A DNA stretch of 47,266 nt from Candidatus Eiseniibacteriota bacterium (GTDB taxonomy: Bacteria; Orphanbacterota; Orphanbacteria; Orphanbacterales; Orphanbacteraceae), in contig JAJRWB010000060.1 of assembly GCA_024276995.1 (NCBI GenBank), forward strand, positions 1 to 47,266, in the 5' to 3' direction. Position numbers and translations under genes: made by a program. Shown here in pieces: positions 1,741 through 8,047 of this stretch. Numbering within the stretch: the stretch's first letter is position 1; every line of letters starts with the position of its first letter. The notes beneath the pieces are model-generated. The model was not told where the DNA came from and did not search any database. It saw only the letters and a list, made by a program, of their open reading frames with translations.

Positions 1741-2050
1741 CTCGGGACGCTCAGCGAGACGAGGCCGGTGGATCCGGCGGTGGCCCGGCGTTCCCACCGG
1801 GGATCATCGGGATGAGCCGGGCAAGCTCCCTCCGTGGCGGCGAGCGCCTGTCCGGGAGGCTTCGAAGCGCGGCCGGCTGGACCTGTCGCGGTTCAGGGTG
1901 GACCGCCCCGGGTCCACCCTGGGACGCGATGGGCCGGCCGAGCGGAGAAGCGAGGTCGCTCCCGAAAGGGAGTGACCGAAGCGGCCTCCCGGCGGGCATT
2001 TGCCGCCGCGGAGGGAGCCGGTGCACAGCCGCGGAGGGAGCGAGCGGCGC
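1741..2050 (+). other. GC-rich element with nested inverted repeats: candidate structured RNA or dispersed repeat
   Basis: Perfect or near-perfect arms nest inside one another. GCTCCCTCCG (1825-1834) pairs with CGGAGGGAGC at 2009-2018 or its copy at 2032-2041. CCGGGAGGC (1852-1860) pairs with 1984-1992, continued by TTCG (1861-1864) with CGAA (1977-1980). GGCCGGC (1871-1877) pairs with 1933-1939, then TCGCG (1886-1890) with 1925-1929, then an 11-bp stem 1894-1904 with 1911-1921. A 9-bp hairpin 1955-1963/1968-1976 has a GAAA loop and one G-T pair, which as RNA would be a GNRA tetraloop and a wobble on the plus strand. A local stem joins 1771-1783 and 1794-1805. A 14-bp direct repeat lies at 2005-2018 and 2028-2041. 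Short proline/arginine-rich open frames here look like translated GC repeat. It does not match my recollection of RNase P, tmRNA, SRP or 6S RNA. It could be a dispersed intergenic repeat. Confidence 0.4.
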
Positions 2051-2670: not shown

Positions 2671-2747
2671 TGGGGTGAGTGACGGGGATCGAACCCGCGA
2701 CCACCAGATCCACAGTCTGGGGCTCTACCAGCTGAGCTACACCCACC
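2671..2747 (-). tRNA. tRNA-His (anticodon GTG)
   Basis: This is a full cloverleaf on the minus strand. Acceptor GTGGGTG (2746-2740) pairs with CACTCAC (2681-2675), the D arm is TAGCTCAGCTGGTAGAGC, the anticodon loop is CTGTGGA and the T arm is GCGGGTTCGATCCCCGT. The His-specific extra G(-1) at 2747 faces discriminator C at 2674, and CCA is encoded at 2673-2671. Confidence 0.95.
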
Positions 2748-2814
2748 ACACGGCGTATATTGTAGGGCAGCGGCGGTCGGCGGGCAAGCGGTTCGACCGC
2801 GAAACAAGGGAGCA

Positions 2815-2887
2815 TGCGCCCGGGAGGATTCGAACCTCCAGCCTACGGATTAGAAGTCCGTTGCGCTATCCATTGCGCCACGGGCGC
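2815..2887 (-). tRNA. tRNA-Arg (anticodon TCT)
   Basis: Acceptor GCGCCCG (2887-2881) pairs with CGGGCGC (2822-2816), with discriminator A at 2815. The anticodon stem CGGAC/GTCCG-type arm holds loop CTTCTAA, giving TCT for AGA codons. The T arm is GGAGGTTCGAATCCTCC. CCA is not encoded. Confidence 0.95.
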
Positions 2888-2892
2888 CTGAA

Positions 2893-2966
2893 TCGGGGCG
2901 ATAGGATTCGAACCTACGACTCCCTGCTCCCAAAGCAGGTGCGCTACCGGACTGCGCCACGCCCCG
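2893..2966 (-). tRNA. tRNA-Pro (anticodon TGG)
   Basis: Acceptor CGGGGCG (2966-2960) pairs with CGCCCCG (2900-2894), with discriminator A at 2893. Anticodon stem CCTGC/GCAGG holds loop TTTGGGA, giving TGG for CCA/CCG codons. The T arm is GTAGGTTCGAATCCTAT. It is 5 nt from tRNA-Arg, so the two are probably cotranscribed, with tRNA-His further on. CCA is not encoded. Confidence 0.95.
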
Positions 2967-7960: not shown

Positions 7961-8047
7961 GCCGAAGTGGCGGAATTGGTAGACGCGCATGATTCAGGGT
8001 CATGTGGGCGTATGCCTGTGGGGGTTCGAGTCCCCCCTTCGGCACCA
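7961..8047 (+). tRNA. tRNA-Leu (anticodon CAG)
   Basis: Acceptor GCCGAAG pairs with CTTCGGC. The D arm holds GCGGAATTGGTAGACGCG. Anticodon stem CATGA/TCATG encloses TTCAGGG, giving CAG. A long class-II variable arm (GTGGGCGTATGCCTGT region) is followed by the T arm GGGGGTTCGAGTCCCCC, discriminator A8044 and encoded CCA 8045-8047. It is the only plus-strand gene among minus-strand operons here. Confidence 0.95.

Follow-up and report, generated by a model that had tools for sequence, protein, structure and literature searches.

Probable foldback mobile DNA: a dispersed palindromic repeat family with a conserved core in Orphanbacterota

What kind of element is the strongly folding segment that lies behind an HD-domain gene on contig JAJRWB010000060.1 of Candidatus Eiseniibacteriota bacterium (GCA_024276995.1)? 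An initial annotation of this contig, whose 47,266 nucleotides are called the window here, described the segment as a structured RNA or novel repeat built of nested arm pairs. The plus strand of positions 1820-2050 has a predicted folding energy of -177.4 kcal/mol as against -122.7 +/- 4.9 for dinucleotide shuffles (z = -11.1), and the minus strand one of -149.5 kcal/mol (z = -7.1 against shuffles); the plus-strand segment starting at 1841 has the lowest energy of the 818 segments of 231 nt that were taken from the two strands of the contig. The nested arms are real: a long basal stem leads to a three-way junction that bears a long arm (P2) and a hairpin (P3) with the GAAA loop noticed at the outset (Table 1). 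Further inverted repeats join 1859-1877 to 1933-1951 and 1886-1904 to 1911-1929. The element does follow the stop of the HD gene, which runs in the opposite sense. Based on the comparison of its copies, the segment probably belongs to a hitherto undescribed family of mobile repeats that are dispersed, non-coding, non-autonomous and palindromic (foldback).

Table 1. Parts of the element copy at 1716-2043 of the window and the neighbouring gene
Feature	Position	Strand	Basis or remark
Outer 5' arm TCGATCCCTCCGTAGCG, part of the upstream half-copy	1716-1732	plus	partner ~2028-2043
Half-copy of the element, degenerate and truncated	1731-1821	plus	covariance-model match; alignment with main copy
Core word GAGACGAGGCCGG of the half-copy, 13 nt	1756-1768	plus	identical in G004 copies
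Basal stem 5' arm, main copy	1825-1855	plus	inverted repeat; folds; both-sided changes in C4 copy
P2, long apical arm; conserved GGCCGG ... GGCCGGCCGAGCG flank	1871-1939	plus	fold; comparison of copies
Conserved middle strand GCCGGCCGAGCGGAGAAGCGAGG, basis of the family pattern	1933-1955	plus	pattern scan
P3 hairpin, GAAA loop; 1954-1963 with 1968-1977	1954-1977	plus	fold; covariation
Basal stem 3' arm, main copy	1988-2018	plus	inverted repeat; folds
3' arm, second occurrence (belongs to the upstream half-copy as its outer arm)	2028-2043	plus	none in C4 copy
HD-domain gene (Pfam HD_4), neighbour outside the element	2060-2626	minus	gene end faces element

A search of the same genome and its relatives revealed scattered copies, some of them partial, in three genomes. 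The window's own genome (G000) holds a second copy on another contig (C4:42883-43082, minus strand), which is 86% identical, folds equally well (z = -11.9) and is changed on both sides of four base pairs. A covariance model of these two copies found three places in the same-family genome G004, the MAG LQ108M_Bin_12 published as Orphanbacterota (PMC9727166), and a scan of G004 with the core pattern gave 13 matches, as against none for the reversed control. A second model was built from 11 of the copies themselves; it matched 32 places spread over many contigs of G004 (about 32 copies), two full copies and one weak match in G000, and a single solid copy in a genome of a third genus (G003; fold z = -10.3). 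Most copies are from one genome, so that they do not represent independent lineages. A relic of the 5' half of the element lies at G000:C74:16897. Covariance-model searches gave no acceptable match in four other genomes of the family or in about 234 genomes outside it, the element was not found in the phages or plasmids searched, and no Rfam family matched at or above its gathering score. Among the matches listed by a wider contig pattern scan, five had clear model scores, all on contigs of the G004 MAG, and the viral matches among those listed failed the follow-up model search.

Several other candidates were discarded: the first DNA matches in distant genomes (L004, L005) are coding sequence without excess folding; the match on G003:C42 (L192) lies in a coding, FlgD-like C-terminal region whose codons spell the core word by chance; the one in G055 (L265) has no palindrome (z = 0.26); and the one on G000:C67 (L195) is weak (E = 0.04) and lacks the core motif. 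A protein-coding reading of the window copy was likewise rejected, the 91-aa minus-strand frame having no Pfam match.

The elements are about 90-250 nt long and carry two arms and a junction on top of a basal stem; full copies follow one order: basal stem, 5' strand GNGAGACGAGGCCGG, P2, middle strand GGCCGGCCGARCGAG..GCGAGG, P3, CGCAGC and 3' arm. The basal stem (20-45 bp) is near-perfect inside each copy and very different in sequence among many copies, and its arms have ill-defined ends; the unpaired junction strands, by comparison, are conserved. In a 29-row alignment, fitted to the structure and with some rows that were afterwards judged to be chance matches (L192), pairing holds in 94% of cells and both sides have changed in 25 of the 31 pairs; sliding of the partners lowers pairing to 31-55%. 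Without any alignment, complementarity scores 27.5 for a copy's own arms and 10.0 for arms of different copies. Two subgroups differ in how far their arms resemble each other: between copies of subgroup B, the arms are 35% identical (37% for shuffled arms) around cores that are 88% (5' core) and 94% (3' core) identical, while between copies of subgroup A arm identity rises to 57% (39% shuffled), and part of the stem therefore travels with the element. Copies that have suffered deletion of the 5' core or of P2 still have near-perfect stems (L178, L207, L213). Roughly half of the G004 copies carry a RAYT-type REP in P2, and in the other subgroup P2 is filled by a second conserved palindrome, GAAAATGGGCAGGGTTAATCAGACCCTGCCCATTTTC (L194, L196, L185, L190, L197, L198).

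Both halves of the original description, structured RNA or novel repeat, thus retain something. Scattered copies, unrelated gene contexts, partial copies and the lack of a conserved protein speak for a repeat; structure is upheld by pairing that is kept through both-sided change, a kind of change that does not discriminate RNA from foldback DNA. We infer both the mobility of the element and the way in which its arms are formed. The core, folded as single-stranded DNA, would be recognised by a DNA-processing enzyme, and the element would spread as non-autonomous DNA; the folded-back 3' end could copy the opposite flank by template switching, which would make or renew the arms and yield, in a single step, long stems peculiar to each locus. 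If stems began perfect and decayed afterwards, they would resemble those of this family. Template switching is reported to generate both perfect stems and compensatory changes of several bases in a single event (PMC8794818). Tentatively, it is possible that the core is what inserts and that its long inverted repeats are made by foldback synthesis, with the target flank as the template, giving each insertion a locus-specific, almost perfectly paired stem. At G004:C2:335901, the 3' core in exact reverse complement stands in place of the 5' core, so that a REP is enclosed in a palindrome of 45 bp without mismatch; foldback copying would leave such a sequence as its footprint, and L016 resembles an earlier case that has since decayed. 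Counted against mobile foldback DNA are the likeness of the subgroup A arms, the fact that no transposase was found linked to the core in the genomes searched, and the fact that no empty site was found (the queD-gltX locus is not among the about 80 G006 contigs examined); so are the plus-strand folding bias and the conserved unpaired junction, both of which are expected of a functional RNA.

A plus-strand structured RNA is accordingly the main rival of the mobile-repeat reading, and a rather unlikely one. It would be a new class of non-coding RNA, with a conserved unpaired junction that might bind a protein or a ligand or be catalytic, surrounded by freely covarying helices and amplified to many paralogues in one genome. 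Its case is made by covariation that none of the shuffles of the structural alignment reaches in both pairing and both-sided changes, with which the alignment-free arm test agrees, by the conserved junction strands, by the GAAA loop, and by the plus strand folding better than the minus strand in 17 of 18 copies. Beside this last result, the strand argument for RNA that had been drawn from the window copy alone is mixed: mismatches in the independently varying basal stems comprise 37 G-U against 24 A-C, not a clear excess (p = 0.12). The numerous truncated copies, the inconstant gene context, the lack of a match in Rfam and the absence of the element from four of the seven phylum genomes examined also weigh against an RNA, and pairing maintained by copying would produce covariation equally well. 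Gene context bears on a further, improbable reading, that of a bidirectional transcription terminator between convergent genes, either multiplied or built from local terminators. The hairpins are very stable, in 17 of 22 cases the gene on the right-hand side has its end facing the element, and about 24 neighbour pairs include 9 convergent ones, counts that come from a crude ORF call; several copies, including that of the window on its left side, nevertheless stand in other gene orders, termination does not need a conserved 100-nt core, and long palindromes lacking both core and REP were not found in 400 kb. The gene-end context fits neutral insertion or a terminator role alike and is not decisive. 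Very improbable is the proposal that the element inserts into the loop of a pre-existing long palindrome, which then becomes the basal stem: while the locus-specific arms of subgroup B and the position of one copy (L028) within a split REP palindrome would suit it, no palindrome of similar length without the core was found, REPs aside, in 400 kb of G004 and 297 kb of G000. The mobile foldback repeat thus remains the favoured reading; the element probably has no regulatory duty, and a strong hairpin near gene ends may stop transcription incidentally.

The window copy has one peculiarity, a 14-nt direct repeat (2005-2018 = 2028-2041) that doubles the closing arm and had been taken to allow alternative pairing, as in a switch. 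The duplication is real, and each closing arm in fact occurs twice, TCCCTCCGTRGCG at 1720 and 1827 and GCCGCGGAGGGAGC at 2005 and 2028. When the window was searched with the 11-copy covariance model, the stretch upstream of the main copy matched weakly (17.1 bits, E = 0.058), and it can be aligned with the main copy from the arm up to the start of the 3' core. The window thus holds a full copy and a degenerate half-copy of the element, in tandem or nested, and the closing arms are therefore doubled; an outer stem encloses both. That a riboswitch-like switch uses the duplicated arm to act on the neighbouring HD gene is scarcely credible. The segment 1825-1838 could indeed pair with either copy of the arm; against this, the C4 copy has a single closing arm, the second arm in the window has its own outer partner, the HD gene ends at the element on the opposite strand and so does not have it in a same-strand leader, and the gene contexts of other copies differ. 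The duplicated arm is better explained as a remnant of element copies that lay in tandem or nested in one another. A tandem doubling like that of the window, with CCTCGGTGAGGAGCGGCG present twice, also affects the outer portion of the 3' arm at L182 (G004:C20, 46.7 kb).

The REP palindrome word GGGGACACAATAC, found 111 times in G004, borders a Y1/RAYT transposase gene at C5:52257 (L225), the only RAYT locus that was read; because the word flanks this gene, GGGGACACAATAC is most likely the REP of the C5:52257 transposase. The RAYT locus is not flanked by the core of the element. This REP family, with GGGGACACAATACTTAATTCC palindromes at the 111 places in G004, is present in G002 and G006 too. 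Y1 transposases were found in G002, G003, G004 and G006 and not in G000, G001 or G005, of which G000 nonetheless holds copies of the element. Neither its size nor a linked transposase makes the element itself a REP.

Other features of the neighbourhood deserve mention in their own right. FGE-sulfatase-fold proteins are common targets of diversity-generating retroelements. The minus strand of the window encodes, at 1-732, an FGE-sulfatase-type protein that is interrupted by the contig end, its would-be variable part lying beyond the contig; elsewhere in the genome, a diversity-generating-retroelement-like cassette (L007, G000:C36:650-4294) joins a reverse transcriptase and a bAvd accessory gene to the final portion of an FGE-sulfatase-type protein. 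A retron origin of the element was rejected, as the sole reverse transcriptase found in the window's genome has the bAvd-type accessory gene of diversity-generating retroelements and does not lie near either full copy. The window also carries a cluster of tRNA-His, tRNA-Arg and tRNA-Pro genes (2671-2966, minus strand) and a tRNA-Leu gene (7961-8047, plus strand).

Proof of a functional RNA usually rests on covariation. The present family passes the covariation test strongly, yet much of the evidence favours foldback DNA stems made by copying, and it thereby offers a natural test case of how far template switching mimics compensatory evolution; a poorly known phylum also gains a repeat family. 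Among known systems, the attC sites of integrons are recognised as a folded single DNA strand whose stems vary freely while structural features stay. The element shares the freely varying stems and differs in its three-way-junction topology, and the copies read show no cassette array.

REPs and REPINs are dispersed extragenic palindromes mobilised by RAYT (TnpA-REP) transposases (PMC3116915, PMC8266576, PMC2817692). The element is likewise dispersed, extragenic, palindromic and free of genes, and REPs are thought to act as folded single-stranded DNA; by comparison with the 20-50 nt hairpin of a REP, however, it measures about 200-250 nt, has a three-way junction and a stem sequence that is not common to many copies. 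REP palindromes have a conserved tetranucleotide, usually GTAG, beside them, and the RAYT gene is flanked by REPs; no prominent GTAG was seen in a 15-copy alignment of the element. Closer in size are the MITE-like small repeats of bacteria, such as NEMIS/Correia, ERIC, YPAL, RPE and CIR, some of which are transcribed as RNA hairpins (PMC2229807). They too are non-coding, intergenic and under about 250 bp, with terminal arms that pair; in MITEs, however, the terminal repeats are common to the copies because the transposase reads them, whereas here the arms differ and the inner core is conserved. The quasipalindromes left by template switching show the same long perfect stems and the same multi-base, both-sided changes made in one event, and have been described for existing RNA genes and as sporadic mutations, not as the origin of the ends of a dispersed repeat family (PMC8794818); the present family may show a route by which repeats acquire locus-specific inverted ends.
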